A stretch of 64,000 nucleotides of DNA from Acinetobacter indicus CIP 110367. Its GTDB lineage: Bacteria > Pseudomonadota > Gammaproteobacteria > Pseudomonadales > Moraxellaceae. This document shows positions 12,716-60,910 of the stretch, in pieces. A program made the translations under genes and the position numbers. The notes below the pieces were generated by a model. That model was not told the DNA's origin. It saw only the letters and a list, made by a program, of their open reading frames with translations, and searched no databases. The stretch spans positions 372,001 through 436,000 of the forward strand of contig NZ_KI530754.1 in assembly GCF_000488255.1 (NCBI RefSeq), given 5' to 3'. The first letter of the stretch is position 1; every line of letters starts with the position of its first letter.

Positions 12716-12791
12716 GTCCCTATCGTCTAGAGGCCTAGGACATCGCCCTTTCACGGCGGTAACCGGGGTTCGAATCCCCGTAGGGACGCCA
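12716..12791 (+). tRNA. tRNA-Glu (UUC), copy 1
   Basis: A 76-nt tRNA with acceptor stem GTCCCTA/TAGGGAC, anticodon loop CTTTCAC (anticodon TTC), T-arm GGGGTTCGAATCCCC and encoded CCA. It is identical to three more copies in this window. Confidence 0.95.
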
Positions 12792-15913: not shown

Positions 15914-15989
15914 GTCCCTATCGTCTAGAGGCCTAGGACATCGCCCTTTCACGGCGGTAACCGGGGTTCGAATCCCCGTAGGGACGCCA
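15914..15989 (+). tRNA. tRNA-Glu (UUC), copy 2
   Basis: Identical in all 76 bases to the copy at 12716; it has its own consensus promoter. The flanking sequences differ from the other copies beyond a few bases. Confidence 0.95.
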
Positions 15990-18649: not shown

Positions 18650-18725
18650 GTCCCTATCGTCTAGAGGCCTAGGACATCGCCCTTTCACGGCGGTAACCGG
18701 GGTTCGAATCCCCGTAGGGACGCCA
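18650..18725 (+). tRNA. tRNA-Glu (UUC), copy 3
   Basis: Identical to the other copies over all 76 bases, anticodon TTC, CCA encoded. Confidence 0.95.
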
Positions 18726-18769: not shown

Positions 18770-18845
18770 GTCCCTATCGTCTAGAGGCCTAGGACATCGC
18801 CCTTTCACGGCGGTAACCGGGGTTCGAATCCCCGTAGGGACGCCA
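18770..18845 (+). tRNA. tRNA-Glu (UUC), copy 4
   Basis: Identical to copies 1-3. It lies 44 bp after copy 3 and just before a strong terminator, so it is the end of a two-tRNA transcript. Confidence 0.95.
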
Positions 18846-44033: not shown

Positions 44034-44039
44034 GAGTCT

Positions 44040-44221
44040 AACTCTGAGGTGTTCGCCAGCAGGTCTATTCCCCTGCCGATACTTAAACTTATGGATTGCG
44101 TTCTGTATATTTAGAGTGCATGCCCACCCTGAGTGGGAAGCCCAGCAAGTATACGTCGCGTCCACCTTGAACTCATCGGGTTCAGGGTAACGACACATGC
44201 AGCGGCACCGTCGGAGGGTTT
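44040..44221 (+). ncRNA. ssrS: 6S RNA
   Basis: About 182 nt directly after zapA. The 5' end ACTCTGAGGTGTTCGCCAGC and the 3' part with CCACCTTGAACTCATCGGG, then GGTAACGACACATGCAGCGG and CACCGTCGGAGGGTT, resemble the conserved ends of E. coli 6S RNA. The two ends pair into the closing stem of the long rod that mimics an open promoter and sequesters sigma70 RNA polymerase in stationary phase. End points are approximate. In E. coli fau (ygfA) follows immediately; here fau is at 55903. Confidence 0.88.
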
Positions 44222-44430
44222 AGCTGATTTATCCTCTATTCAGTCCTCAGAATTTCTATATTTCCTCTTTTTTATAAGTAATGATTCTCTCGCTCTAATC
44301 TTTTAAAGCTTCCAACTAACCGTTAAGCCCTCTTGTAGATACAACCCATCTTAAAAGAACGCCATCCCGAATTAAATCAGTAAGATCGATTTGATTAACA
44401 TCTTCACAAGATTGCAGTTCAGCAAAATTT

Positions 44431-46038
44431 TTAAGCAGACGACTTGACTGTAGAACGGATGCAATTCCGCCCACTATGTTTTGCTTCATAAAGTTTATTA
44501 TCTGCAATTTTTAGTACTGCAGCCACATCGACGGCATCTTTTGGCCAGAACGCGATGCCAATAGAAATCGTGATTTGTCCCATCTGATTAATCGTAGTTT
44601 CCTGCATGGTTTTTCTAAGCCGCTCTGCAGCTTTATATGCCACACTTGCATCTGCAGTCGTCATTAAAACCAAAAATTCTTCACCGCCACTACGACAGCA
44701 AATATCCTGCTCCCTAAAATTAGTTCGCATTATTTGCGCGAGCGTTTTAAGGACCACGTCACCCTGATCATGCCCATACTGATCATTAATTTTCTTAAAA
44801 AAATCAATATCAATGGCTAATACTGCAAATTCCGTACGAGTCTCTAGCAGTTCATTTAAAAATAATTGCATACCACGACGGTTATATATACCTGTCAATG
44901 GGTCCGTATTGACACGATGTTTTAACTCCGCAATCCGATGACTAAAGCTTTCCGAACTCATTAATAATGAGGTTCTGAACTTTAAAACCTCGAAATACCA
45001 CGGATCAACTTCTTTAATTTTATCTTCAATTTCAGCCTGATTGAGCATACTTGCCATACGTGCCAAGTGGTTCAAAGGTGAAGAAATAAAGCTTGAGATA
45101 TACCAAACCAATAAGAAAATAAAAAAGTAGAAAATGAAGATTCCAATCGATACTTTTAAAATCAGCGTATTCGCTTGTGCAAGTAAATCCTCTGTCGGTT
45201 GTTGAGAAACCACTATCCAATTTACACTTGGAATATGTGCAAAACCTGCCAAATTATCTATACCTAAACTATTTTTTAAACGGATTGAGCCATTTTTATG
45301 CTGATTAATAAAGTCTAAACCCGTATTGTTGATAATTTTTTCACCGATGCGATTTTTATCTGGATGGAAAATAATACGGTTATGTTGATCAATCACATAC
45401 ATATAACTTTTTTTATAGTCATATTGCGTATTAAGCATTGTATTTAATAAATTTTTCCGTTGTAAATAAATCGTACCACTGATCATGCCTAAATATTGAT
45501 GTTTTGCATCATGAATAGGTTGTGACATCATGACAACTAAATTATTAGTTACTGACCAATAGGGAGATGAAATATAAGTTTTCTTTTTCTCAATAGATTC
45601 AATAATACCAACAGAACTATAAGCCTGATTAAAATTTAGCTTTAATGTATTAGGTGCATAAGCTAAAATATGTTTATTCTGTCCCACCAATAAAATACTA
45701 TTAAAATTATTAGATTGATTTTTTAAGCGTAGTACTTCTTCTTTTCTAAGTTGTGTATTATAAAAATTTGTTTCTAATAAACGTGCACTATAATCCAACT
45801 CTTGCAGCATATCTGCAAAGTGTTGATTGGCACTGGTCGCAATTTTTTCTGCATATTTTTCATTGATCGAAAGTGAATTTTGAATTAATTGTTCTTTAAT
45901 TACATAATTCAAAATAAATACACTTACGACAAATAAGCCGGATACACTTAAAATTGTCGAAATTAAAATAAGTTTACGCAGATCCAATCCGAGTCTTAGT
46001 AAAAAACGCTTCAACAGTTCCAACCCCAAAAAATTCAA
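44431..46038 (-). CDS. Cache-sensor diguanylate cyclase (GGDEF)
   Basis: A 535-residue membrane sensor. One helix near residues 20-45, a periplasmic Cache-type domain (about 50-300: ISSPYWSVTNNLVVMMSQPI, GMISGTIYLQ and MYVIDQHNRIIFHPD are typical), a second helix at about 308-330, and a C-terminal GGDEF domain (about 375-530) with signature GGEEF. REQD five residues before it is an RxxD I-site. It makes c-di-GMP in response to an unknown small ligand. No ATG start exists; TTG 46038 or a nearby TTG must be used. The gene is visibly more A+T-rich than most of the window. Confidence 0.85.
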   Translation of the reverse strand: MNFLGLELLKRFLLRLGLDLRKLILISTILSVSGLFVVSVFILNYVIKEQLIQNSLSINEKYAEKIATSANQHFADMLQELDYSARLLETNFYNTQLRKEEVLRLKNQSNNFNSILLVGQNKHILAYAPNTLKLNFNQAYSSVGIIESIEKKKTYISSPYWSVTNNLVVMMSQPIHDAKHQYLGMISGTIYLQRKNLLNTMLNTQYDYKKSYMYVIDQHNRIIFHPDKNRIGEKIINNTGLDFINQHKNGSIRLKNSLGIDNLAGFAHIPSVNWIVVSQQPTEDLLAQANTLILKVSIGIFIFYFFIFLLVWYISSFISSPLNHLARMASMLNQAEIEDKIKEVDPWYFEVLKFRTSLLMSSESFSHRIAELKHRVNTDPLTGIYNRRGMQLFLNELLETRTEFAVLAIDIDFFKKINDQYGHDQGDVVLKTLAQIMRTNFREQDICCRSGGEEFLVLMTTADASVAYKAAERLRKTMQETTINQMGQITISIGIAFWPKDAVDVAAVLKIADNKLYEAKHSGRNCIRSTVKSSA

Positions 46039-46436
46039 AAAACTGCGACAAGCGCCAACTTTAACACATAATTTTATAACTCAATCACATGATTTGAAAG
46101 CGATACAGTTGAGTTTTGGTTGTCTATTTTTGATGTTCAATTGCATAAATTAGATAGTTCGTTTGTTGCTGACCACCACCTAAATCAGAAATATATCCTC
46201 TAAATACAATTTCTATCACACACTTCCTCAGAATGCACTGACTAATAACAAATAATGACAACTTGAGTTTTTTCGTACTTATTTTTTTGCTAAAAACCGT
46301 GTCTATTCGATAAATTTTTTAGGGTCAATTACTCATAAAATTACAAAAAATAAATATCTTTTCATGCTTAAAATTTATATAACCACTTAATAAATAGGTT
46401 TTTTCTTATATTTAAGCAATATTTTAATTTAAGCGG
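46039..46436. other. A+T-rich interval upstream of the Cache-GGDEF gene
   Basis: About 400 bp, strongly A+T-rich, with no convincing gene on either strand. It probably holds the promoter of the GGDEF gene (minus) and perhaps lost 5' parts of the lectin pseudogene. Confidence 0.4.
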
Positions 46437-46814
46437 TTGCTCATTTTTAACAGTCTTTTTTTTTGTGGACACATTAGCATCAGCAATGCTCGCTGCGTCG
46501 ATTTTAGTCATAGAAATCAACTTAGCTTTCAGATTTCGCATTGTCATGATGCTACTCATCCGGATTTTATTTTCCATCCTGATCAAAACATTAGCGTGCA
46601 AGACAAATGTCTAGATGTAGCAGAAAAACAGAAACATGATGGTGCTGAAGTTATTGCTTATAACTTTAATGGACAAAGTAACCAAAATGGTATCTCGATA
46701 GTCAGTGTATTCGTAATGCTGATACAGGCGAATGTTGAGACATTTATATCGAAAAATGAAAATGTATAGCTGCAATCTAAATCGTGGTCAGAAATTCAAT
46801 TTTATTGCATCATA
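46437..46814 (+). pseudogene. Remnant of a ricin-type beta-trefoil lectin domain gene
   Basis: The first frame reads NARCVDFSHRNQLSFQISHC, FHPDQNISVQDKCLDVAEKQ and HDGAEVIAYNFNGQSNQ, two units in the style of QxW ricin-B repeats (CLDV...GAxVxxYxxxGxxNQxW). At the expected Trp the frame breaks. The next frame continues WYLDSQCIRNADTGEC, then a TGA where the repeat should have Trp, then DIYIEK. A third frame resumes near 46760 with YSCNLNRGQKFNFIAS and stops at 46812-46814. At least two frameshifts and one nonsense codon are present, so the gene is dead. The 5' end is uncertain. Confidence 0.65.
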
Positions 46815-46918
46815 AATAAAAATCACTCATCCGATTAACCTAGTCTTTTCATTTAAAAATGGGGGAATTAGCGAATGATGATTTAAAAACAACTTATAAA
46901 AAATTTAAACACAATTAA

Positions 46919-47824
46919 TTAAGGATGCTGGCTAAACAAATCAAAAATCACTTTTCTTAACCACTGATGACTGGTTTGGTGATGACAAGACGTATGCCAA
47001 TACTGTCGTACAGGATAAGTTGGAAAATTCAACGGCGCACTTACTACTTGTAAATTCCCACGTGCCAACAATACTTCACTTAAATAATAAGGTACTGTCG
47101 CAATCATATCGGTTTCTTGCACAATTAAACCAACGCCCAAATAACTTGGAATACTCATTAAAATATTACGTCTTAAACCGCGATTGCTTAGTTCATTTTC
47201 AATATGGTAGTGACCTATACTGGTATCCACATCAACATGCGATTCACGAATATAAGCTGCAACATCTAAACTTTTTTCACTAATACGTGGATGATCTTTA
47301 CGACTAATCACCACATAATATTGTAAAAATAATTGCTGCTGATAAAAACCCTGTTCTAATTCAGGTAAAAATCCAATCGCAAAATCAATTTCACCATTTG
47401 CCATTTGATAACTGGTTTCACGGCTAATAGGACGAATTTTAATCCGTACCGAAGGCGCATATTTTTTTAAAAACTTTGTCAGCTTTGGCAATAAAACCAA
47501 ATGCGAAACATCGGTCATTGCCAAGGTAAATAACTGATCGGAATGGGTCGGATCAAAATCGACTTTAAAGTTATTGACCGTTTCAATTTTATTAAGAATT
47601 TCACTAATCGGTGAAAAAATCTGTTTCGCCAACTCAGTTGGCAACATTTCATTGCCCACCCTTAAAAATAATGGGTCATTAAAATGCTGACGAATCTTAT
47701 TTAAACAGTTACTGACCGCAGGCTGACTCATGCCCAACGCATCCGCGGCAGCAGACACATTTTTTAATTTATACACATAATAAAAAATCTGTAGCAGTCT
47801 GCTGTCTAACTTAAACATATCCAT
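46919..47824 (-). CDS. LysR-family transcriptional regulator
   Basis: A 301-residue regulator. The N-terminal winged HTH (LLQIFYYVYKLKNVSAAADA, then LGMSQPAVSNCLNKIRQHF) and an effector-binding type-2 periplasmic fold (about residues 95-300) are complete. The start MDMFKLDSRLL has AAGG four bases upstream. It follows dld by 42 bp on the same strand, so it may be co-transcribed with or control D-lactate use, but the lactate operon already has LldR. The inducer is unknown. Confidence 0.85.
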   Translation of the reverse strand: MDMFKLDSRLLQIFYYVYKLKNVSAAADALGMSQPAVSNCLNKIRQHFNDPLFLRVGNEMLPTELAKQIFSPISEILNKIETVNNFKVDFDPTHSDQLFTLAMTDVSHLVLLPKLTKFLKKYAPSVRIKIRPISRETSYQMANGEIDFAIGFLPELEQGFYQQQLFLQYYVVISRKDHPRISEKSLDVAAYIRESHVDVDTSIGHYHIENELSNRGLRRNILMSIPSYLGVGLIVQETDMIATVPYYLSEVLLARGNLQVVSAPLNFPTYPVRQYWHTSCHHQTSHQWLRKVIFDLFSQHP

Positions 47825-47866
47825 CTTTCCTTAGCATCAGTTTCACTGCTCAGTTTTCATCCTTAT

Positions 47867-49582
47867 TTAGCGCCATGCTTTTAATTTAGAGCTATGTCCA
47901 ATGCCTACATTAAAACAATTGGTCGGATCCAATTTTTTATAGTGCTGCTTCAGAGCAGGCTTCGCCACATATAAATGCCCAACATTATGTTCTGCAGGAT
48001 ACTCTGCCCCACGTGCATCTAGCAATGACCACATTTGATGTTCCATTGCCAATGGGTCTAGACCTTTTTTAATAATATAGTCCTGATGAAAGACATGACA
48101 TAAAAAATGACCATAATACAACTTATGTATAATCGCCTGCTCCAACTCTTCGGGCAAAGTTTCAACCCATTGCTGATCATTACGTCTTAACGCAATATCT
48201 AAAGCAACAATGTCTTCCACTTCATTTCGATGTGTATCACGATAACGGATTGCAGCACCTGCCACTGCAAAGCGATGCAGAAAAGCCTTACGGCCTTCAT
48301 CTTCATTACATAGAAAAAAACTGCCAGAATTGCGCGTGATAAAATAATCCAATAAAAACTGCTGTACTGCCGCAACATCTTGCTGCTCAATGCGCAAAAT
48401 TAAATGATGTTCATACAAATCACGAAATTGGTTCATGCGTTCTGGTAAATGGTTTGGCAGTAGTTTCATGAACATTTGCAAAACTTTATCCGACAATCCA
48501 CGCATGCTCCAACGGGTTAGAAAACCATCAACTTTGTCTTTCATGGCGAAAGCTGCAGGTACTTTACTGGTGCCAAACTTCTCGATAAACAAGAAGCTGT
48601 CTTTGCCGTATTCTGCACCAATGTCATAGGCATCTCGATGAATATACTCACCTGCAATCGGTACACGCGGCAAATCACGTAATAAAAAACGGCGAATCGC
48701 GGTTAAATCATCCTGATGATTACTGCCGATATAAAACACCTGACTTGGAATTTTCTCAAACGTATCCAAACGCACTGCAAACACACAGATTTTACCCGCC
48801 GAACCCGAAGCTTCGAATAAACGGCTCGGGTCGGCATTAAAACGTGCAGGCGTATCGGCGTCGACTTGCGCAACATCATGCACGTAACGCTGATCTGAAG
48901 CACAGCAATGTTCTGAATATTCAATATCTTCAGGGCGATATTGTTGTTGCTCAAGTTTGGTTAAAATTTCTTCTGGCGAGCTTCCTAAATTCACCCCCAA
49001 ATGATTGATAAGTTGCAACTCGCCCAGTTCATTGACCTGGGCATATAAAGCCAACTCAGTATAGGCTGGGCCACGTCTGACCAATGCACCACCTGAATTA
49101 TTACATACCCCGCCCAACACCGAAGCACCAATACAAGACGAACCAATGACTGAGTGTGGCTCACGCTGATGCGGCGCCAAATTTTGTTCCAAAGCATCTA
49201 GTGTTGCACCAGGCAAGCAAATCACTTGCTTGGCATCGTTGATGAGCTGAATACCTTTTAAACGTTGGGTGTTAATCAAAATCACAGGACGATCATAGTC
49301 ATCACCAAAAGGGGTAGAGCCACCCGTGAGTCCTGTATTGGCGGCTTGCATAATAATAATGCAATCTGCGGCCACAGCCACTTGTAACACTTGCCACTGC
49401 TGCAATAAAGTACCTGGCGTGACCACCGCAAAAACTTGTCCTTGGCCAAAACGCCGCCCTTGACGATATAAACGAGTATCCGATTCATGGGTCAATACAT
49501 GCGCTTTCCCCACAATATCAACTAGATTTTTAAGGGTTGCGGCAGCATCAAATTGTGTTATTGAAGAAATTGTCTGTGGCAT
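47867..49582 (-). CDS. dld: Quinone-dependent D-lactate dehydrogenase
   Basis: A 571-residue membrane-associated FAD enzyme, the same length as E. coli Dld. The FAD-binding PCMH domain is seen in VVTPGTLLQQWQVLQ, IIMQAANTGLTGGSTPFGDD and GASVLGGVCNNSGGALVRRG. It oxidises D-lactate to pyruvate and passes electrons to quinone. ATG 49582 is preferred to an upstream TTG at 49618. It follows lldD by 91 bp in the lldP-lldR-lldD-dld order, allowing use of both lactate isomers. Confidence 0.93.
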   Translation of the reverse strand: MPQTISSITQFDAAATLKNLVDIVGKAHVLTHESDTRLYRQGRRFGQGQVFAVVTPGTLLQQWQVLQVAVAADCIIIMQAANTGLTGGSTPFGDDYDRPVILINTQRLKGIQLINDAKQVICLPGATLDALEQNLAPHQREPHSVIGSSCIGASVLGGVCNNSGGALVRRGPAYTELALYAQVNELGELQLINHLGVNLGSSPEEILTKLEQQQYRPEDIEYSEHCCASDQRYVHDVAQVDADTPARFNADPSRLFEASGSAGKICVFAVRLDTFEKIPSQVFYIGSNHQDDLTAIRRFLLRDLPRVPIAGEYIHRDAYDIGAEYGKDSFLFIEKFGTSKVPAAFAMKDKVDGFLTRWSMRGLSDKVLQMFMKLLPNHLPERMNQFRDLYEHHLILRIEQQDVAAVQQFLLDYFITRNSGSFFLCNEDEGRKAFLHRFAVAGAAIRYRDTHRNEVEDIVALDIALRRNDQQWVETLPEELEQAIIHKLYYGHFLCHVFHQDYIIKKGLDPLAMEHQMWSLLDARGAEYPAEHNVGHLYVAKPALKQHYKKLDPTNCFNVGIGHSSKLKAWR

Positions 49583-49673
49583 AGTGTACAAATCCTGAAA
49601 ACAAGGTGAAAAATACAATTGAGCGATTCAGCCAAACACATCGGTTGATGGCTTGATCGCTCTTGCTGGCAAT

Positions 49674-50828
49674 TTAGCCTTTCAGTTCACGCTCAAGTTG
49701 TACCAAGCAATCTGAGTTAATCGCTTGAATATTTTTAGCCCCTGTTAAGGTCATTGCGACGCGCATTTCTTTATCAATCAATTCGAGTAAATTACTCACA
49801 CCCGCCCCGCCTGCAGCGCCTAGTGCATAAATAAAGGCTCGTCCGAGCATACAAGTATCCGCTCCCATCGCCAACATGCGCACCACATCTAGGCCATTAC
49901 GAATACCTGAATCCACTAAAATTTTTAGATCCCCTTTCACTGCATCAGCAATTGGCGGTAAAGCACGTGCAGTTGAGAGCACACCATCTAACTGACGGCC
50001 ACCGTGGTTGGACACCACAATTCCGTCAGCCCCAAAACGAACAGCATCCTTAGCATCTTCTGGGTCTAAAATGCCTTTAATGACCATTGGGCCATCCCAG
50101 AATTCACGAATCCACTCCAAGTCTTTCCATGAAATAGATGGGTCAAAATTATTGCCTAACCAACCAATATAATCTTCAAGTCCTGTTGGTTTGCCCAAGT
50201 ATTTAGAGATATTGCCCAAGTCATGCGGACGACCAAGTAAGCCAACGTCCCATGCCCAGTTTGGATGCATCACTGCCTGCATATAGCGGCGCATAGCAGC
50301 ATTTGGCCCACTCATGCCCGAATGTGCATCACGATAACGTGCGCCAGGCACAGGCATATCTACTGTGAAGACCAAGGTTGAACAGCCTGCTGCTTTGGCA
50401 CGCTCCAAAGCATTGCGCATAAAACCACGGTCACGTAATACATAGAGCTGAAACCACATTGGGCGTGAAATGGCAGGCACCACTTCTTCAATAGGGCACA
50501 CCGACACGGTAGATAAGGTAAACGGAATGCCTTTTTTGTCAGCCGCAACTGCAGCCTGTACTTCACCACGGCGTGCATACATGCCTGTTAAACCCACAGG
50601 TGCCAACGCCACAGGCATTGACAAGGTTTCATTAAATAAGGTGGTTTCTAAACTCAAAGCCGACATGTCATTCAAAACACGTTGGCGCAAGGCAATTTGT
50701 GAAAGGTCTTCAACATTTCTTTTCAGCGTTTGTTCCGCGTACGCACCTCCATCAATATAGTGAAATAAAAATGGCGGTAAACGGCGTTTAGCTGCTTCGC
50801 GGTAATCATTCGCAGAAGAAATAATCAT
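49674..50828 (-). CDS. lldD: L-lactate dehydrogenase (cytochrome/quinone type)
   Basis: A 384-residue FMN-dependent alpha-hydroxy-acid dehydrogenase. The conserved features are [12 protein letters not shown], the active-site stretch [13 protein letters not shown] with catalytic His, and [21 protein letters not shown] with the FMN-phosphate site. It oxidises L-lactate to pyruvate at the inner membrane. Its ATG overlaps the lldR stop by four bases (ATGA), so the two are translationally coupled. Confidence 0.94.
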
Positions 50829-51574
50829 GGCGCTATCCTGTTTAATCGACTCGCACGCTGACGACGCGCATCTTCCTCGTCGATCATGCGTACTTGTTGA
50901 ACTACAAATTCAATATGTCCACACACTGCCGCACGGGCAGCTTCTGGATTCTGACGTTCAATTGCATCCATCACTTGAAAATGCTGATCATGCAACTGAT
51001 CGAAACGGTGGGCTTCGGTATAAACTTTACGTCGACCCAAAACCACGTTGTATTGCAACAAATCAAATAAGCCGCGCATCATTTGAATAAGCACCAAATT
51101 GTGCGATGCCTCGGCAATTGCCAAATGAAACTTGGCATCGGCAATTGCCGCCTGATCATCATCACCCAAAATTTGAAAATGGGCGATTTGCTCATAACAA
51201 GCACGGATTTTTTTCAAATCCTCAGCGGTTGCCCGCTGTGCGGCATACCATGCCGTACCACCTTCAAGCACCATTCGTGCTTCCTGCACATCAAAACGAT
51301 AAGCAGGATCTTCATCAATCAGGTTACTTAAAGGCTGCACAATTTGATATTGCGACCAATTGGTTGGCAGCTGTTGCAAAAAAGTACCCGCTCCAACTTT
51401 GCTGACCAGCATGCCCTGACTGGTCAATTGCTGAATAGCCTCACGCAAAGAGGAACGGGAAACCCCGAGTTGTTCACACAACTTTCTTTCGGCAGGCAAT
51501 CGGTCTCCGACTTGCATCTGATTTTTTTCAACCAGTGTGCGCAGGTCTTGAACAACTTTGTCGGAAACTTTCAT
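50825..51574 (-). CDS. lldR: GntR/FadR-family lactate-operon regulator LldR
   Basis: A 249-residue GntR protein of the FadR subfamily. The winged HTH is at residues about 10-75 ([20 protein letters not shown]), with an all-helical FCD ligand domain at about 90-230. LldR binds TTGGT-N3-ACCAA-type operators and is relieved by L-lactate. Three matching sites lie in front of lldP at 53331-53450. The gene lies between lldP and lldD, as in E. coli lldPRD. Confidence 0.92.
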
Positions 51575-51598
51575 GCGGCTATCCTCTTGTGCATGTGG

Positions 51599-53263
51599 TT
51601 ATGGAATCATCCATGGGAACACATAAGCTTGTAGAGTGATAATAATACCGATCATTACGGTGAACGTGATACTGTGTTTCACGGTAAAGCGGAATAAATC
51701 CGATTCTTTACCGACTAAACCGACTGCCGCACAGGCAATTGCAATCGATTGCGGCGAAATCATTTTGCCTGTAACACCACCACTGGTATTGGCAGCAACA
51801 AGTAACACTTCTGGCACACCAATTTGCTGTGCAGTTGTGGCTTGTAAGGCTGCGAATAACGCATTGGCTGATGTGTCTGAACCAGTCAGGAATACTCCAA
51901 TCCAGCCTAAAAATGGCGAGAAGAAAGTAAATGCATTACCTGTATGAGCCAAAGCCAATGCCAAGGTCGCAGACATACCTGAATAATTGGCGATAAAAGC
52001 AAAGGCCAGCACCATACCAATGGAATAAATCGGTGTTTTTAATTCATTGATGGTTTCTGCAAAGGTTTTGACAGCTTCACGTGGTTTCATTTTTAAATAA
52101 ATGATGGTGATGAAAGCCGCAATCATAATTGCAGTACCCGTGGCACTCAGCCAGTCAAACTTAAAGATGGCATCGTAGTCTTTGACGTCTGCCACCACAG
52201 GCGGCATTTTTTGTACCAGTTGATGTAAAAATGGCACCTTGATGGAAATGACCCAATCATGCATTGCACCATCTTTAGCAAATAAATCTTTGAACGGTTT
52301 GATGCTCCAAATGGTGACCATCACCGTTAACACTGCAAAGGGTGACCATGCTTTAACAATCTGCCCTATGCTGTATTTTTGCTGTTGTTCTGCAACCAAG
52401 TTGGCATCTACTTTTGTGTCTGCATCGCTAAAACGGAAAATGTGTTTTGGCTGCCAGAATTTAAATAAGACCGTTAAACTAATCAAAGAGGCAATTGCAG
52501 CTGTAATGTCTGGTAACTCAGGCCCAACAAAGTTAGAGGTCAAGTATTGTGCAATCGCAAAAGCACCACCACCCACCAACACTGCAGGCCAAGTTTCTTT
52601 CACACCGCGCCAGCCATCCATAATTGCCATAATCCAGAACAGCACAATAGGCACCATAAATGGCAACTGACGTCCAACCATCTGGCTAATTTCCATGGTT
52701 TCTACACCCGAAACCTGACCCGCCACAATAATTGGAATCCCCATTGCGCCAAACGCAACAGGTGCGGTGTTCACAATCAGACATAAACCCGCAGCGTATA
52801 AAGGCTTAAAGCCCAAACCCACCAATAAAGCTGCAGTAATTGCCACTGGCGCCCCAAAGCCCGCTGCACCTTCTAAAAATGTCCCAAACGCAAAGCCGAC
52901 TAATAGCATCTGGAGACGCTGATCTTCTGTAATCGAAAGAATAGATGAGCGAATAATGTTAAATTGCCCTGTTTTTACAGAGATTTTATATAAGAATAAT
53001 GCGCCAATAATAATCCATGCGATTGGCCACAAACCGTAGAAAAATCCATAGATCAATGAAGCAAAAGCCATTGGTGCAGGCATGCCATAGGCAAATAAAG
53101 ACACTAATAACGCCAAAATCACCGTAATTGTTCCCGCAACACTTCCCTTTAAGCGAAATACAGCTAGTGCCAAAAAGAAAAAAATAATCGGGATTGATGC
53201 AATAAGACTCGAAATCCAAATATTTGCCATTGGATCATAGATCTGTTGCCAATGTTGAAGCAT
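51599..53263 (-). CDS. lldP: L-lactate permease LldP
   Basis: A 554-residue inner-membrane proton/lactate symporter (E. coli 551) with about 12-14 helices. It opens [20 protein letters not shown], the family N-terminus, and carries [16 protein letters not shown] and [19 protein letters not shown], conserved in lactate/glycolate permeases. ATG 53263 has AAGGAG six bases upstream. It is the first gene of the lactate operon under the LldR operators. Confidence 0.94.
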
Positions 53264-53330
53264 TGTCATCTCCTTGAAATGCTCACTCAAACGTAAACAT
53301 AGGTCTAAGCATAGAGGTAAAATTCTAATT

Positions 53331-53343
53331 TTGGTCTGACCAA
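53331..53343. promoter_or_regulatory. LldR-type operator, promoter-distal side
   Basis: TTGGTCTGACCAA is a perfect 5+3+5 palindrome of the FadR/LldR type, 68 bp before the lldP start and downstream of the promoter hexamers. Confidence 0.7.
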
Positions 53344-53384
53344 TATTGAAATAAAAATCAAAATACCCTCAATATTTGCAACAA

Positions 53385-53412
53385 ATAATAGTTTTATACA
53401 AATAAATGTCAA
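53385..53412 (-). promoter_or_regulatory. Probable lldP promoter
   Basis: On the minus strand TTGACA (53407-53412), a 16-bp spacer and TATTAT (53385-53390). A degenerate LldR half-site (TTGGTCTGATTAT, 53415-53427) touches the -35. Confidence 0.55.
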
Positions 53413-53434
53413 TATTGGTCTGATTATTTATTTA

Positions 53435-53450
53435 AATGGTCATACCAATT
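53435..53450. promoter_or_regulatory. LldR-type operator, upstream side
   Basis: AATGGTCATACCAATT contains TGGT-N3-ACCA, centred about 105 bp from the other operator. The pair brackets the promoter, as O1 and O2 do in E. coli lldPRD. Confidence 0.65.
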
Positions 53451-53716
53451 TAAATTAAGATGATCTATGTTTGCAGCATAAAAAATGCGGTGAAGAAAAA
53501 TTTAAACTTTGTTTTTTCTGTAGTTTTTAAAAGGAGGGAAAAACCAAATTTATTTCGCACAGCTTTATACAACTTTAGTCCAATACAATGGAATCAGTGT
53601 GCTTTCTTCTAAGATGAATTGAACGCTTGATAAAATGAATCGTAGATAAATTCAGCTCAAGTGGCCGCTATTCGGTTTAGAAAACATGTTGGTTAAAGAA
53701 TATTTTAGACAAAAAA

Positions 53717-53750
53717 ATAATGCCATTGTTGACTGCAACAATGGCATTAT
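53717..53750 (-). terminator. Strong terminator downstream of the membrane-anchored unknown gene
   Basis: A perfect 15-bp stem (53717-53731 with 53736-53750) around ACTG is followed on the minus strand by a run of seven T (plus 53711-53717). The stretch 53451-53710 between it and the lld operators holds no gene that I can support. Confidence 0.9.
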
Positions 53751-53782
53751 CGTGTATTTATAACAGCAGATCATAAGCTTAT

Positions 53783-54292
53783 CTATGGGCTTAGCCTGTC
53801 ACCCCCCACGTTTAGACGTTTTAAACGCGAAATATGCAAATCAATTTGCCCTGCAATTTCAGGTAAAATTTGCTTTAAGAACTGGCTATAGTTCATTGCA
53901 TCTTCTGCTCTTAATACGCCTGCTTGTACCAATTGTTCCTGCTGTAGCAACATACTTTGTACACGGTTTAAATCAGGTTTTTGCCCTTGGCTTAACCCTG
54001 TACTAATTTGCTCAAAGCCTAAATACAACTGATCACGTTGCTGGATTAATTGCTGCATTTCAACTGCAGATACAGCAGCACGCTCTAGCATAGCGTTTGT
54101 TTCAATTACATTTTCAGATTCATCTGAAAATAGACTTTGCGTTGTTTCTATCTCTGTGGAAGCTGCGTTCGGTTTCACCCATACTGTTTCCGAAACAGTC
54201 TTATTCGGCGGTTGAAACATATACACCACGGTAAACAACACCGCGACAGCCAAAACAAAAAAGCCAATACCGAGCCATCGAGTCCCTTTCAT
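53783..54292 (-). CDS. Membrane-anchored helical protein of unknown function
   Basis: A 169-residue protein. One N-terminal membrane helix (WLGIGFFVLAVAVLFTVVYM, residues about 6-25) is followed by a polar region and a Gln-rich, probably coiled-coil C-terminal half (QQLIQQRDQLYLGFEQ..., MLLQQEQLVQAG). It would face the periplasm. No family is recognised. ATG 54292 is preferred because GGAG stands seven bases upstream. It lies downstream of the broken beta-propeller gene and ends at a strong terminator, so it is probably a real transcription unit. Confidence 0.65.
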   Translation of the reverse strand: MKGTRWLGIGFFVLAVAVLFTVVYMFQPPNKTVSETVWVKPNAASTEIETTQSLFSDESENVIETNAMLERAAVSAVEMQQLIQQRDQLYLGFEQISTGLSQGQKPDLNRVQSMLLQQEQLVQAGVLRAEDAMNYSQFLKQILPEIAGQIDLHISRLKRLNVGGDRLSP

Positions 54293-54389
54293 GTGCATGC
54301 TCCATAGGTAAACCATTCTAAAATGCGCTCATTTCAAATATCGTCTTGAGCGCTTTAGTATGTTTTGCCTGTTATGATCGGCTTAAAAA

Positions 54390-55640
54390 TTACGGCGTCG
54401 ACCAATCGCTTGGTGCATAACCCAAACGTACTCGCTGTGGGTGATTCCCTACTGGCACACTGCGGACTTTTTCTCCTGTAGCGAAGTCAATCACCGTGAC
54501 CACATCGGTTTCACTTTCTGAAATTACACAGCTTTTGCCATCCGGACTGCGCGTAGCCCAATACGGTTTACCGGCCGGAATGAGCTTGGTGGCCTGCAAA
54601 GTACGTCGGTCCACAATAGTGGCATAGTCATCCATGGTGCCTGCCACACAGAGCTTTTCGCCATCGGCACTAATGGATAAACCATGATGGCGCGAGTCAT
54701 TAACCCATTTGGTCCGGTCTTTAGGAATAGTGCTACTACCCGGCAGTTGGGCGATGCGAGTAATTTTGTCCTGATTTAAATCATATTCCACCAGACCATT
54801 AAAGAAAGATACCTGCGCATAGAGCTTGCTTTCATCTTTACTGAACACCATCGGACGTACCGAGTTCGACAGGTCTTTACGTCCAAAAGCATCTAAAGCC
54901 GGACGAAAATCAATTTTTTTCAGCACCTTATAGGTATTGGCATCGGCGATGGTGATATAGCGTTTGCCCTTGGTGAAATCCTGCCATTGAGCATCCATGG
55001 AAGTTTCCACATTGCCAATTGCCGAGTTCAGAATTTTACTGCCATTAGCAAAATAGATATTTTCATGTGGCTTATCGCCCGTTGCAAAACGGCCCAGCTC
55101 TTTCCCGGTATGAATGTCCAAGACATGCACCACATTACCTGAAGATGCAGATACGGCCACACGCTGCCCATCTGGTGAAACCGCCATGTGGTCTGCACGG
55201 AAACCTTCGACTGGCGTACGCCAATTAATTTTGCCCGTTTTAATGTTGATGGATACCACATCGGCAAAACTTGGACGTGAAGCTACAATGGATTGTCCAT
55301 CTGGGGTGGAATACATATCATCCACCAACTGGTCATTGCCCTTACCTGCAGTTTGTTGAATGTAAGTGTAGGCAATTAATTTCACTGGATTTAAATGAAT
55401 TTCTAATAAGCGTTCTTTGCGGTCAGGAATCATATTGACCACGCCCACTTTGCCAAAATCACCGGAAGGACGAATCACCGTGACCGTTCCATCTCAGTTA
55501 TTGCCAACAAAGAAAACCTGTTTGGAATTGGCCGGTGCAGGCATTTCTGTAGATGCTGCCTGAGCAACGCTAGCGCTGAGTGCCGTGACAGCACAAACGG
55601 CCGGCAGCAGATATTTACGCAGGGTATTTTTATAGCCCAT
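54390..55640 (-). pseudogene. Periplasmic YVTN-type beta-propeller gene interrupted by an opal codon
   Basis: From ATG 55640 (AGGA upstream) the frame encodes a signal peptide ending near SASVAQA, then VFFVGNN, then TGA at 55494-55496 (codon 49), then DGTVTVIRPSGDFG and about 365 more residues to 54390. The distal part carries propeller repeats such as HMAVSPDGQRVAV, VHVLDIHTGKELG and PYWATRSPDGKSCV. The same frame continues on both sides of the TGA, and a Trp (TGG) would fit there. So it is a nonsense mutation or an error. Without readthrough, only a 48-residue signal fragment, or a cytosolic propeller from GTG 55478, would be made. Substrate and function are unknown. Confidence 0.75.
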
Positions 55641-55902
55641 GTTATTGTTTTCCTAACCATGTGTTCATTTTTAATTTGTTCTTGTCATACTCACGTCTCA
55701 ACACTGCATCAGCATAAAGACAACAGGCCCTAGAAATCTATCCGCTTGCTGTAAAATCCGACGGAAGTCCATCTGATCTTGCAAATTGAGCATCAATAAG
55801 CTCCGGTTTTTGCAATACATCTTATTAGTGCAAATCCGTAGCAGCCGTGTGCCCTTTGCAAGTTGTGCAGAAAGGATTAAACTGCGGGCACCACTTGTTT
55901 TT

Positions 55903-56602: not shown

Positions 56603-56649
56603 CACTATAAAAAACATGGCAACACCGTTGTCACTCATTAGGAGTGCCC

Positions 56650-59076
56650 ATGTCTGAAATTATTATGAATGAACAAACCTTAGAGCCTCAGGTTCCAAGT
56701 GTATTACCGCTTTTAGCGCTACGTGACGTGGTGGTTTATCCGCACATGCAAATTGCGCTATTTGTAGGTCGTGAAAAATCGATCAATGCAGTTGATGTGG
56801 CTCGTAACAGTGACAATCTAGTATTTGTAGTTGCGCAAAAAGATTCGCTTACAGAAGAAATTGATCACGACAATTTATATCAATACGGTACTGTCGCGAA
56901 GATTGTGCAAGTTGTGAATCACGAAAATGATGAGAACTGCATCAAAGTCCTGATTGAAGGTCTGCATCGCTCGAAGCTGGTCGAAATTATCGAAGAAGAG
57001 GACCATCTAAAAGCAGAACATCAGTTAAGCCCAATGACGGTTGCGGTAGACAGTGAGGTTCAGGCCACACGTGTGCTCGAATTGCGTGCCCTGTTTGCAC
57101 AATATGCCGAAGCAAAATTACGGAATGCGCGTGAACTGATTGCTGCGGTCAACAAAATTGATGACCTGCTGCAATTGCTGTTTTTTGTGGCGACCCGCGT
57201 TCCACTGAATATCGAAGTGAAACAGAAATTCCTGGAACACGACGAGTTTGAAGCACATTTACAGGAACTCATGACCTATTTGCTGCAACAGTCTGAAGAA
57301 CAGCAGATTGAGCAAACCCTGCATGATTCTGTCAAACGCCAGATGGAAAAAAACCAGCGCGAATACTTCCTGAATGAAAAAATGAAAGTCATTCAGCGCG
57401 AACTTTCCGATATGAATGGCGGTGCGGAAGATGACGTTGCGGAAATTGAAAAACGTTTGGCCGAAGCTGATTTACCAGAACACGTGCGTAAAAAAGCCGA
57501 ATCTGAACTGCGCAAGTTAAAAGCCATGCAACCGGCGTCGAGTGAAGCGGCGGTGGTCCGTAACTATCTTGAAGTAATTCTGGATACGCCGTGGAACAAG
57601 GCCAGCAAAGTCAGCATCAACCTGAATAAAGCGCAGGAAATTCTGGATGCCGATCACTATGGTCTGGACGAAGTCAAAGAACGCATTGTGGAATATCTGG
57701 CAGTTCAATCACGCGTGAAAAAACTGCGTGGCCCGATTCTGTGTCTGGTGGGTCCTCCGGGTGTTGGTAAAACCTCTTTGGGTGAATCAATTGCCAAAGC
57801 CACTGGCCGTGAATTTGTGCGCATGGCGCTAGGCGGGGTCCGTGATGAAGCGGAAATCCGTGGTCACCGTCGTACCTATATTGGTGCAATGCCGGGTAAA
57901 ATTGTGCAGTCTTTAACCAAAGTTGGCGTCAAGAACCCGCTGTTCCTGCTCGACGAAATTGACAAGATGGCGCAAGACTACCGTGGCGATCCTGCCTCGG
58001 CGATGCTGGAAGTACTCGATCCATCACAAAACAACAAGTTCAATGATCACTATTTAGATCTGGACCTGGACCTGTCTGAAGTGATGTTTATCTGTACCGC
58101 CAACAGCATGAATATTCCTGAAGCACTTCTGGATCGTATGGAAGTGATTCGTCTTCCGGGTTATACCGAAGAAGAAAAAGTGAATATCGCCGATCGTTAC
58201 CTGGTGCCAAAAGCCATCAAGAATAACGGTTTACGTGGCAAAGAACTGACCGTACATGAAGAAGCGATTCGTGACATTGTACGTCGTTATACCCGTGAAG
58301 CCGGTGTGCGTAGCCTGGAACGTGAAGTCTCTAAAATTGCACGTAAAGTGGTCAAAGAAGCGGTCAGCAAAAAAGCCAAAAACCTGCAGGTTGAGGTCAA
58401 CGCGGGCAACTTGCCAGACTACTTGGGTCCACACAAATTCGACTTCGGCATGGCGGAAGAAGAAGCAGAAGTGGGTCGCGTAAATGGTTTGGCCTGGACC
58501 TCTGTGGGCGGTGAATTACTGACCATTGAAGTGGCGACCATGAAAGGCAAAGGCACTTTCATTACCACCGGTTCACTCGGTGATGTCATGCAGGAGTCGA
58601 TTAAAGCAGCCATGACTGTGGTGCGTACCCGTGCCGACTCTTTGGGCATTGAATCTTCAGTCTTTGCTGAAACTGATGTACACGTGCATTTACCTGAAGG
58701 TGCAACACCAAAAGATGGTCCATCGGCAGGTCTGGCGCTGACTACCGCGCTGGTGTCGGCATTTACCGGTATTCCAATCCGTCCGGATATTGCCATGACC
58801 GGTGAAACCAGCTTGCGTGGTCGTGCTATGCGCATTGGTGGCTTGAAAGAGAAACTGTTAGCCGCACACCGTGGTGGTATTAAACTGGTGTTTATTCCAC
58901 AGGAAAACGTCCGTGACCTGGCGGAAATTCCGGATAACGTCAAAGACGGTCTGGAAATTAAAGCAGTGAAATCCATTGATGAGATTTTACCGCTGGCATT
59001 AACCTCAATGCCAAAACCGCTGGTGAAAGCGCCGATTGTAAAACCGGTAGAAGAAGGTAAGGCTGCACGTCACTAA
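56650..59076 (+). CDS. lon: ATP-dependent protease Lon
   Basis: An 808-residue AAA+ serine protease degrading misfolded and regulatory proteins. The N-terminal substrate domain starts LPLLALRDVVVYPHMQIALF. Walker A is GPPGVGKTSLGE and Walker B FLLDEIDKM; sensor elements follow. The protease domain has the Ser-Lys dyad in PKDGPSAGLAL and GGLKEKLLAAHRG. ATG 56650 has GGAG five bases upstream. The gene ends in an intrinsic terminator at 59101. Confidence 0.96.
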   Translation: MSEIIMNEQTLEPQVPSVLPLLALRDVVVYPHMQIALFVGREKSINAVDVARNSDNLVFVVAQKDSLTEEIDHDNLYQYGTVAKIVQVVNHENDENCIKVLIEGLHRSKLVEIIEEEDHLKAEHQLSPMTVAVDSEVQATRVLELRALFAQYAEAKLRNARELIAAVNKIDDLLQLLFFVATRVPLNIEVKQKFLEHDEFEAHLQELMTYLLQQSEEQQIEQTLHDSVKRQMEKNQREYFLNEKMKVIQRELSDMNGGAEDDVAEIEKRLAEADLPEHVRKKAESELRKLKAMQPASSEAAVVRNYLEVILDTPWNKASKVSINLNKAQEILDADHYGLDEVKERIVEYLAVQSRVKKLRGPILCLVGPPGVGKTSLGESIAKATGREFVRMALGGVRDEAEIRGHRRTYIGAMPGKIVQSLTKVGVKNPLFLLDEIDKMAQDYRGDPASAMLEVLDPSQNNKFNDHYLDLDLDLSEVMFICTANSMNIPEALLDRMEVIRLPGYTEEEKVNIADRYLVPKAIKNNGLRGKELTVHEEAIRDIVRRYTREAGVRSLEREVSKIARKVVKEAVSKKAKNLQVEVNAGNLPDYLGPHKFDFGMAEEEAEVGRVNGLAWTSVGGELLTIEVATMKGKGTFITTGSLGDVMQESIKAAMTVVRTRADSLGIESSVFAETDVHVHLPEGATPKDGPSAGLALTTALVSAFTGIPIRPDIAMTGETSLRGRAMRIGGLKEKLLAAHRGGIKLVFIPQENVRDLAEIPDNVKDGLEIKAVKSIDEILPLALTSMPKPLVKAPIVKPVEEGKAARH

Positions 59077-59100
59077 GTGGTGCCTTCATATCTTCTCCAC

Positions 59101-59124
59101 AAAAGAGAGCTTCAGCTCTCTTTT
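59101..59124. terminator. Terminator of lon
   Basis: A 10-bp stem (59101-59110 with 59115-59124) around TTCA ends in T4, then GTTGTTTT. Confidence 0.85.
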
Positions 59125-59189
59125 GTTGTTTTCGGGTGATGAAATGTTCCACTTGAAAAATTTCCGTTCATCTCCATCTATAATAATAC

Positions 59190-59304
59190 AGAGCATATTG
59201 CTGTAAGTTTCTTTTTTTATTCCTGCTCATCGAATGGCCATTCAAACTCCAGATGAATGGCCTGTTTGACCGCAGTCCTACTCTATTTCAGGGCTGCGTT
59301 TTTT
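59190..59304 (+). ncRNA. Candidate small RNA downstream of lon
   Basis: Between the lon terminator and the convergent peptidase gene there is a TATAAT (59179-59184), a T-rich stretch (59208-59219), a hairpin GGCCATTC/GAATGGCC (59236-59243 with 59255-59262), and a second complete intrinsic terminator (stem 59271-59279 with 59290-59298, then T6). This terminator is not needed by lon and has no U-tract for the minus-strand gene, so an independent RNA of about 115 nt is a reasonable reading. The -35 is weak (TTGAAA at 20 bp). No known RNA family is recognised. Confidence 0.45.
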
Positions 59305-59312
59305 ATGGCCGC

Positions 59313-60275
59313 TTATGGCGTCGCCCCGAGCAGTTGATGAATCAGCCCATCAATCACCTGGCCCATTTTGGTGACATTTAAAGTATCCAGCGTATCCTTT
59401 TCGGTATGATAATTCGGATTACGATAATGCGAAGTATCGGTAATCAGCAGTGCTGGAATATCATGCTGCCAATAACTGCGATGATCCGAAAACCCGGCTG
59501 CACTGACAAACGCCGGCATCACCAGCCGTTCACACTGCAATTTATCTAACAGGCGCATCTGCTGACAGTATTGCTCACCCAGCGCATTGGACTGAAAATT
59601 ACTGATCGCGGCAATATAATTGCCATGACTTGGATAAATCCATTTTAACCCCATCGGATACTGCTGGATTAAACGCGAATCATAGTAGCCAATCATTTCC
59701 AGCACATAGACTGCCTGAATATGCTCTTTTTCGGCCAGAATAGATTTGGCATGTACCTGACTGCCCATAAACTCGGTCTGATAATACGGTGCTTCTTGCA
59801 GGGTATAAAAAACAAACTCGACATTATGCGGCAGCTTGGTTTTTTCCTGGCTTAAGATACGCGCTATTTCAATTAATCCGGCCACACCGGAAGCATTGTC
59901 ATCGGCGCCCTTCTGGTTGCCATGCACATCATAATGTGCACCTAAAATCACCCGATCTGAACGGCCCACCTTTAAATGACAGACCACATTGCGATAACTT
60001 TTTCCATTGACCGGATAAGTCTGGTACTGGCATGGAATGCCGAATAAACGCATCTGCTCTTTAATCCAGGCCGAAACCCGGTTCAATTCTTCAATATTTT
60101 TATGATTGCGGTACACACCCGGCGGCCCGATAATCTGCTGCAAATAGACTTTCAAATTTTGCGGATCAGCCGGTTCATATAATGAAATGGCGGCGGATAG
60201 CGGCTGCATCCAGCCCAGCAGCAAAGTACAACCCAATATCCCTAAACCGTTTTTAATCTGTTGAAATAACCACAT
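59313..60275 (-). CDS. Secreted M28-family zinc aminopeptidase
   Basis: A 320-residue protein with a signal peptide (hydrophobic GLGILGCTLLLGW, cleavage near PLSAA). The M28 metal ligands are visible: GAHYDVHG (His), KGADDNASGVAG (bridging Asp), LQEAP (Glu), EMIGYYD and the C-terminal NYHTEKDTLDTL (His). It would act in the periplasm or outside the cell as an aminopeptidase; the substrate is unknown. The start codon lacks a clear Shine-Dalgarno element. Confidence 0.88.
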   Translation of the reverse strand: MWLFQQIKNGLGILGCTLLLGWMQPLSAAISLYEPADPQNLKVYLQQIIGPPGVYRNHKNIEELNRVSAWIKEQMRLFGIPCQYQTYPVNGKSYRNVVCHLKVGRSDRVILGAHYDVHGNQKGADDNASGVAGLIEIARILSQEKTKLPHNVEFVFYTLQEAPYYQTEFMGSQVHAKSILAEKEHIQAVYVLEMIGYYDSRLIQQYPMGLKWIYPSHGNYIAAISNFQSNALGEQYCQQMRLLDKLQCERLVMPAFVSAAGFSDHRSYWQHDIPALLITDTSHYRNPNYHTEKDTLDTLNVTKMGQVIDGLIHQLLGATP

Positions 60276-60427: not shown

Positions 60428-60910
60428 ATGAAAATCCGTATTCTGACCATTGGTCAAAAAATGCCGGCTTGGGTACTGACTGGTTTTGAAGATTATTTCA
60501 AACGTATACAGCCTTTTGTACAAACCCAGATTATTGAATTGCCGATGGCCAAACGTGGCAAAAATGATTCAGAAGCCGATATTTTAAAATACCGGCAGAT
60601 TGAAGGTGATAGCATCTTAAATGCTCTGAAAGCCAATGAAACCCTGATTGCACTGGAAGTGGGTGGGCGTGAATTCAGCACCGAAAAACTGGCTGAAACC
60701 ATGAAAGGCTGGATGCTGGAAGGCAATGATATTGCCCTGGCCATTGGCGGCCCGGATGGTCATTCGGAAGCAGTGCGTAAAGCTGCAGCATGGCACTGGT
60801 CTTTATCTAAACTGACCCTGCCACATCCACTGGTGCGAGTGATGCTGATTGAACAGCTGTACCGGGCCATGAGCATTAACCATAATCATCCTTATCATCG
60901 GGCGGGTTAA
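60428..60910 (+). CDS. rlmH: 23S rRNA pseudouridine-1915 N3-methyltransferase RlmH
   Basis: A 160-residue SPOUT-fold enzyme. The opening MKIRILTIGQKMPAWV, the middle ALEVGGREFSTEKLAETM, AIGGPDGHSEAVR (trefoil-knot SAM site) and the ending MSINHNHPYHRAG are hallmark RlmH features. It methylates pseudouridine 1915 in helix 69 of 23S rRNA. No clear ribosome binding site precedes the ATG. Confidence 0.95.
   Translation: MKIRILTIGQKMPAWVLTGFEDYFKRIQPFVQTQIIELPMAKRGKNDSEADILKYRQIEGDSILNALKANETLIALEVGGREFSTEKLAETMKGWMLEGNDIALAIGGPDGHSEAVRKAAAWHWSLSKLTLPHPLVRVMLIEQLYRAMSINHNHPYHRAG

Follow-up and report, generated by a model that had tools for sequence, protein, structure and literature searches.

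C-rich, anti-Shine-Dalgarno small RNAs (sRNAs) include AbcR1/2 and the CCUCC-loop sRNAs of rhizobia, CcsR of Rhodobacter and LhrC of Listeria. In Acinetobacter baumannii few sRNAs have a known target, and PtaZ and HemZ have been described there as sRNAs derived from 3′ UTRs (PMC12802169, in part). Aar (sRNA21, ABUWs016) is approximately 100 nt long with conserved 3′ hairpins, and its CUCC seed, which has been tested, masks the ribosome sites of carO, bfnH, and other messages (PMC11472050, in part). The Aar seed lies in a single-stranded 5′ region, at nucleotides 29-32 (PMC11472050, in part), and its gene is at position 861,839 in strain AB5075 (PMC5320573 Table 1, in part). In Hi-GRIL-seq, sRNA76 accounted for 30.6% of chimeric reads (PMC11472050, in part). 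Also in A. baumannii AB5075, art50/ABUWs054 is an RNA-seq transcript of 148 nt (PMC5320573 Table 1, in part), which is encoded on the same strand as 6S RNA and begins 5.2 kb beyond the annotated start of 6S, and for which the consulted part of that paper gives no function (PMC5320573).

Here we describe a predicted sRNA gene downstream of lon in a 64,000-nt stretch of the Acinetobacter indicus CIP 110367 genome (the window, to which all coordinates refer). Judging from the comparison of relatives, this is almost certainly a real and conserved sRNA gene, and the observations as a whole are best explained, with good probability, by an autonomous Acinetobacter sRNA gene of approximately 105-145 nt whose CUCC loop masks Shine-Dalgarno sites. 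The literature consulted on Acinetobacter lon/rlmH, art50, sRNA76, and mscL described no function for such an RNA; a 2018 dRNA-seq paper may list it. Within the portions consulted, PMC12802169 reports no lon gene as an sRNA neighbor and leaves mscL unmentioned in its main text, while PMC5538643 contains no rlmH and, for “lon,” a single match to the name of a cited author.

Organization of the lon-downstream locus

The predicted sRNA has as its upstream neighbor lon, encoding the ATP-dependent protease (56644..59076, plus strand; Pfam Lon_C, LON_substr_bdg, and AAA), and is followed by a convergent gene for an M28 family peptidase (59313..60275, minus strand; Pfam Peptidase_M28) and then by rlmH (60428..60910, plus strand; Pfam SPOUT_MTase), its downstream neighbor in relatives. 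Between the lon stop codon at 59076 and 59313 the plus strand carries, in this order, the lon terminator, TTGAAA, TATAAT, a U-rich stretch, a hairpin, and a terminator ending in T6. The intrinsic terminator of lon (59099..59130, plus strand), with a 12-bp stem and a T-rich tail, was detected by the terminator scan, and a similar stretch is present 3′ of lon in relatives. Beyond it, the separate TATAAT, U-rich stretch, hairpin, and second full terminator of the preliminary description can all be read directly on the plus strand, the TATAAT at 59179-59184 and the rest at 59207-59304. The predicted RNA (59191..59304, plus strand), which is supported by its folding z score and a covariance-model match, would be approximately 114 nt long. 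Its U-rich stretch GTTTCTTTTTTTATTCC (59207..59223, plus strand) is a putative Hfq contact, read from the sequence.

The loop-presenting hairpin (59236..59262, plus strand) had been described with 8 bp and an 11-base loop, and this is correct for the arms GGCCATTC (59236-59243) and GAATGGCC (59255-59262); with an extra A-T pair the stem has 9 bp and the loop, AACTCCAGA, 9 nt. At the core of the loop is CTCCAG (CUCCAG in the RNA; 59247..59252, plus strand), the proposed seed against CUGGAG. The sRNA’s own Rho-independent terminator (59271..59304, plus strand), present by sequence and alignment, consists of a 9-bp stem with the arms CGCAGTCCT (59271-59279) and AGGGCTGCG (59290-59298), followed by TTTTTT (59299-59304). 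It is absent from the automatic terminator scan of the window because its loop has 10 nt and the scan accepts at most 8. The stretch 59186-59304 has a folding energy of −37.3 kcal/mol (z = −4.73), and 0 of 200 shuffles folded as well. No Rfam 15 family (4227 families) reached its gathering threshold at this locus in a scan of the whole window, and the best sub-threshold match within 59000-59400 was sraA, on the opposite strand, with 19.1 bits against a threshold of 56.

The TATAAT (59179..59184, plus strand) is a likely −10 element that was read in the sequence and is unsupported by the consensus-based promoter scan, which gave no plus-strand sigma-70 match at the sRNA. The conserved TTGAAA upstream (59153..59158, plus strand) is the −35 candidate where relatives read TTGAAA-16-CATAAT; in the window the spacer between TTGAAA and TATAAT is 20 nt, a poor spacing, and transcription would be expected to start near 59191. 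In 72 of 76 Acinetobacter loci a TTGAAA occurs no more than 190 nt 5′ of the loop, compared with 210 of 1560 random windows. The full predicted promoter TTGAAA-16-CATAAT is found in 40 of the 76 loci and in 3 of the 1560 random windows, and these three may be real ones because the random windows were drawn from the same loci as the sRNA. In the 40 loci the predicted RNA measures approximately 105-143 nt. By sequence comparison, the −10 region is shifted in the window’s group and the promoter is less clear there. The promoter is a predicted one, conserved in 40/76 loci and oddly spaced in the window.

Several features near the sRNA or elsewhere in the window were recorded in passing. A second box, approximately GCTGTAWGTTTCT (59200-59212), lies in the 5′ part of the RNA and is kept in the window’s group only; it is possibly a second functional segment. 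At four loci (L008, L009, L018, and L216) a gene for a VOC/glyoxalase-like small protein, named by reading, starts between the lon terminator and the sRNA. In the window, 6S RNA (44038-44221) and fau (55786) are approximately 11 kb apart, and the interval (44038-55800) holds an apparent L-lactate use operon with a permease, a GntR-type regulator, and lactate dehydrogenases (all by reading), as well as other genes; less than 1.5 kb separates 6S from fau in A. pittii and A. calcoaceticus. Four copies of tRNA-Glu (TTC) lie within approximately 6 kb, at 12716-12791, 15914-15989, 18650-18725, and 18770-18845.

Structural conservation, distribution, and synteny

A gapped DNA pattern matched 78 stretches in a collection of 84,980 species genomes, and 76 of these are from Acinetobacter; at the remaining two, none of the neighboring genes was found. 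Among the 76 loci, lon is upstream in 74, rlmH is downstream in 71, and both are present in 69; the two loci without lon are L083, where the stretch is too short, and L099, where there is none in almost 4 kb. The M28 gene is beside the sRNA in 34 loci and not in 40, with two undecided, and where it is missing rlmH starts approximately 120-190 nt downstream of the loop on the same strand. A separate DNA search of 58 relatives matched 21, with the best match outside the window’s genome at 59235-59307 and other matches at the lon terminator; in its lon-bearing loci rlmH follows with or without M28 in between.

The preliminary description had proposed covariation of the hairpins in relatives as a check, and this was found. 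Alignment A3 (74 rows, MAFFT) combines 55 of 74 pattern rows with 19 of 20 rows chosen by score, hand-picked for spread; the pattern search had given 75 rows, of which one was spurious (L108, 30 nt). The RNAalifold consensus structure has 17 pairs, 15 of which show two-sided changes, including 9 of 9 helix pairs in the loop-presenting hairpin and 6 of 8 in the terminator, where 99.2% of cells are paired. Overall, 96.1% of 1258 cells pair, compared with 82.2% in shuffles, and the covariation score of 0.498 compares with 0.229 for shuffles (sd 0.010; 0/500 reach it) and drops to 0.102 or less once one side is slid. The secondary structure is thus conserved and covarying on A3. Furthermore, A3 has 86 G-U cells and 12 A-C cells, an asymmetry that identifies the plus (lon) strand as the RNA and rules out an RNA from the minus strand. 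One locus is present twice in A3 with different ends (L116 and L294), and removal of L294 (73 rows) leaves 96.2% paired and G-U and A-C counts of 85 and 12.

The loop CUCCAG is unchanged in 74/74 rows of A3, a constancy that is partly built in because the regular expressions that gathered the rows require CTCCAG. CTCCAG was also present in 20/20 opened copies scoring 51-64 bits, which were picked by the score of a model itself built from loop-bearing rows; the stems of these copies differ from that of the window in most pairs. In the same score range, separate inspection of G014, G112, and G035 also showed the loop, while G173, G180, and G122 are left out of this count. An exposed CUCCAG loop thus appears to be conserved by these comparisons, and its role would be that of a seed.

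Covariance model R1, built from 19 orthologues, matched the window at 59220-59304 with 75.6 bits (E = 3.0e-17); the second-best match in the same genome reached 18.7 bits, so there is one strong match only. In Acinetobacter, 137/175 genomes were matched at E ≤ 0.1, of which 129/175 were strong (E ≤ 1.9e-10; 91.5 to 51 bits) and eight weak. In the family sample, 91/199 genomes were matched at E ≤ 0.1, and in the order sample, under stricter filters, 2/293 at E ≤ 1e-4, both of Acinetobacter. Convincing matches beyond the genus came from four genomes of one genus (g31; 56-58 bits) and one of another (g29; 47 bits), and the copies opened (three of the four g31 genomes and the g29 genome) have the same loop and lie right after lon. 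Matches in a further genus, g30, were weak (20-34 bits): CTCCAG was absent from those of G264 and G303, and no copy of it was seen ahead of a T run in G298. Eleven weak matches of 25-35 bits, second or distant ones from Acinetobacter and other genera, were considered as paralogues and rejected; they lack CTCCAG and resemble terminators or chance matches.

Absence was checked downstream of lon in 38 genomes, 31 drawn from the 38 that gave no match and seven from the eight that gave a weak match only, and in two controls. The RNA was present at lon only in the control G035 and in G074, where the copy is diverged (35.8 bits) and keeps the loop. In G117 and the control G014 the copy sits elsewhere, and the contig of G133 ends too early to show the sRNA site; in the remaining genomes R1 did not find the sRNA downstream of lon. 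In total, five genomes carry the sRNA away from lon, so the element is also retained at a distance from this gene. It is 113, 117, and 211 kb from lon in G014, G112, and G117, respectively, while the sRNA-bearing stretches opened in G031 and G136 have no lon, M28, or rlmH. Beside the copies away from lon (L258, L278, L280, L292, and L305), four genomes have an FKBP-like gene and three a LysR-like gene, both named from reading the protein sequence.

These results bear on the antisense roles first suggested for the RNA. It cannot be antisense to readthrough from lon, as had been supposed, because the two are on the same strand. Complementarity to the M28 message holds for the DNA here, for a 3′ extension of that message only, and fails as a conserved function, with 40/76 loci having no M28. 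A cis-antisense RNA of M28 was rejected on the same ground: in those 40 loci no M28 gene lies between the sRNA and rlmH, so the RNA is not always opposite this gene. Since it persists without M28 and, in five genomes, away from lon, it is not antisense to M28. What the comparison shows, at the level of sequence, is a structured 3′ part (hairpin and terminator), its strand, its conservation, and its independence from M28. The proposal of a small RNA at this site is strongly supported by position, covariation, the constant loop, the terminator, and the promoter predicted in 40/76 loci.

Candidate targets of the CUCCAG loop

CUCCAG is complementary to CUGGAG, i.e., a Shine-Dalgarno sequence with two extra letters. 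In the window’s genome, TCTGGAG occurs 4-9 nt before ATG in 50 rows and the reversed pattern in 11; by reading, the 50 rows include copies of a ribosomal RNA stretch. Real gene starts by inspection were those of ompA, mscL, a DUF3015 gene, ahpF, and a DcaP porin, with Pfam support for all except ahpF, which was named by reading. Candidates were chosen because the window’s genome has the CTGGAG site, and the sRNA-bearing group is therefore favored in the comparisons with sRNA-lacking genomes, to which G020 and G175 were assigned by model searches only.

By support from these site counts, mscL comes first and the gene for the DUF3015 protein second among the predicted targets. CTGGAG lies just upstream of the mscL start in 25/38 sRNA-bearing and 0/23 sRNA-lacking genomes (19/23 vs. 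0/7 in the first set; 6/15 vs. 0/16 in the second), and in the second set six control genes neighboring mscL had no CTGGAG in either group. The site was absent in 9/15 bearing genomes of the second set, several of which have diverged stems and read GTGGAG at mscL. A typA tree, for which a typA stretch was required, covers 59 of 61 genomes having an mscL start and leaves out G014 and G031, both of which have the sRNA and the mscL site. On this tree the site is present in 23/36 bearing and 0/23 lacking genomes, and the states change at least 7 times for the sRNA and 9 times for the mscL site. The mscL contrast depends on a small number of independent losses, with four independent pairs on well-supported branches and seven on all branches. 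Across 200 pairings the mscL site differed in 0 to 2 of 4 pairs, always in the expected direction (p ≥ 0.5). The link between the sRNA and the mscL site is thus not significant after tree correction; these sequence counts are suggestive and do not establish it, and we propose mscL only tentatively as a direct target.

The DUF3015 site was present in 15/22 bearing and 1/6 lacking genomes, with G019 and G031, in which the start was unplaced, counted as misses. For ahpF there is little support: the site was present in 4/23 bearing and 0/7 lacking genomes, counted at a single copy although there are often two. The window’s genome has two ahpF-like starts (G000:C10:238832 and G000:C10:324743) whose N-terminal 60 aa are identical, and many relatives also have two ahpF matches. 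For ompA the site was present in 22/22 bearing genomes, a count that took G133 as bearing even though its contig ends before the sRNA site, and in 17/18 lacking genomes; ompA was therefore rejected as a specific target. One earlier look at lacking genomes had found the site in 11/12 readable ones (G133 among them), and another had found it kept in G009, G002, and G012 and lost in G015. Such a ribosome site evidently needs no sRNA, because ompA keeps CTGGAG in lacking genomes. The ompA leader around TCTGGAGGAT (L145/L190 and relatives) is near letter-for-letter identical in most copies examined, also in genomes without the sRNA, and another factor, perhaps Aar or some other sRNA with a CUCC seed, may maintain it.

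Alternative readings and comparison with described sRNAs

As we picture it, a promoter of its own beyond the lon terminator would start transcription and the sRNA terminator would end it. The stem would hold out the loop CUCCAG, whose CUCC would pair with GGAG of CUGGAG Shine-Dalgarno sequences, so that ribosomes could not load and translation of certain messages would go down. Hfq binding is plausible from the U-rich linker and the U tail, which would recruit it. Action in trans through the CUCC loop on ribosome sites is, on balance, likely. Alternatively, the loop could be a site for protein binding or sRNA sponging and not an mRNA seed, which we consider unlikely. A protein or a second RNA could equally well recognize a short, constant loop presented by a covarying stem, and the evidence for mRNA targets is modest. 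Against this alternative, CUCC matches the Shine-Dalgarno core by exact complementarity, and Aar has it as its tested seed (PMC11472050, in part). A small peptide was rejected as the function. The window has a frame of 11 residues spanning the hairpin (MAIQTPDEWPV), and an ATGG start in the stem occurs in 26/76 relatives, with frames of 3, 7, 11, or more residues; ten of these share an 11-residue frame (MVIYISRWMTF in nine, with one change in the tenth) that is unlike that of the window, and the frames were counted as a by-product of conserved DNA. A clade-specific peptide may nevertheless exist.

Other explanations tie the element to its neighbors. The hairpins could be a second, back-up pair of lon terminators, in a structured 3′ UTR that has no role in trans. 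This is rather improbable, although lon and the sRNA share a strand, the same hairpins come close after the lon stop codon in three g31 genomes and one g29 genome, and no separate lon terminator was seen in the g31 stretch: lon’s own terminator comes first in the window and most relatives viewed, the loop is constant while the stems turn over, which termination does not need, the element is found away from lon in five genomes, and it has its own predicted promoter in 40/76 loci. That promoter, found in many species, and the intervening lon terminator also make it improbable that the sRNA is cut from the lon message as a 3′-UTR-derived RNA without separate transcription, a route for which PtaZ and HemZ of A. 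baumannii set a precedent (PMC12802169, in part) and which would suit the sister-genus copies directly after lon. A leader or attenuator of rlmH would fit the 40/76 loci without M28, where rlmH is approximately 120-190 nt downstream of the loop on the same strand, but is very improbable given the opposite-strand M28 gene that intervenes in 34/76 loci, the element’s position elsewhere in five genomes, and the lack of rlmH in the stretches searched in G014, G031, and G136.

The reading as an autonomous, trans-acting sRNA gene can be carried further. A Moraxellaceae-specific sRNA family might act through a constant anti-Shine-Dalgarno loop to control MscL, the emergency valve, together with other envelope proteins, having arisen beside, and perhaps from, the 3′ region of lon and having been lost several times, with the CUGGAG of mscL fading alongside. 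One sister-genus arrangement hints at an origin as the lon 3′ end, but taken together we regard this scenario as doubtful. The six-base loop is constant in every copy opened and the sRNA spans most genomes of the genus, and it would provide Acinetobacter with a core sRNA family suitable for inclusion in Rfam. One transcript previously detected in A. baumannii would perhaps gain a function, and the list of testable targets is short and includes the osmotic safety valve MscL.

That transcript is art50/ABUWs054, which may well be the same gene, matched by strand, size, and distance from 6S RNA. The loop lies 5160 nt from the 6S start in A. pittii and approximately 5169 nt in A. calcoaceticus, like the 5.2 kb of art50, and the predicted sRNA has 137-143 nt in the A. 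pittii/A. calcoaceticus group compared with 148 nt for art50. The spacing from 6S varies, being approximately 5.96 kb in Acinetobacter sp. B51 (L115) and approximately 15 kb in the window. In G062, the loop and fau are separated by approximately 11.7 kb rather than 3.6 kb, and a 6S-like match of 49 nt, lying at approximately 13.2 kb, was unconfirmed by Rfam.

Identity with Aar was rejected. As far as the consulted descriptions allow comparison, the two differ in locus, and the lon-side sRNA, placed between lon and rlmH, has its CUCC in the apical loop of a hairpin while that of Aar is in a 5′ single-stranded seed (PMC11472050 and PMC5320573, in part).

The CU-rich loops or unpaired stretches of the C-rich sRNAs AbcR1/2, CcsR, and LhrC mask ribosome sites, and the lon-side sRNA would act likewise. 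It differs from these anti-Shine-Dalgarno sRNAs in being single-copy with one loop, and is likened to them by its proposed mode of action.
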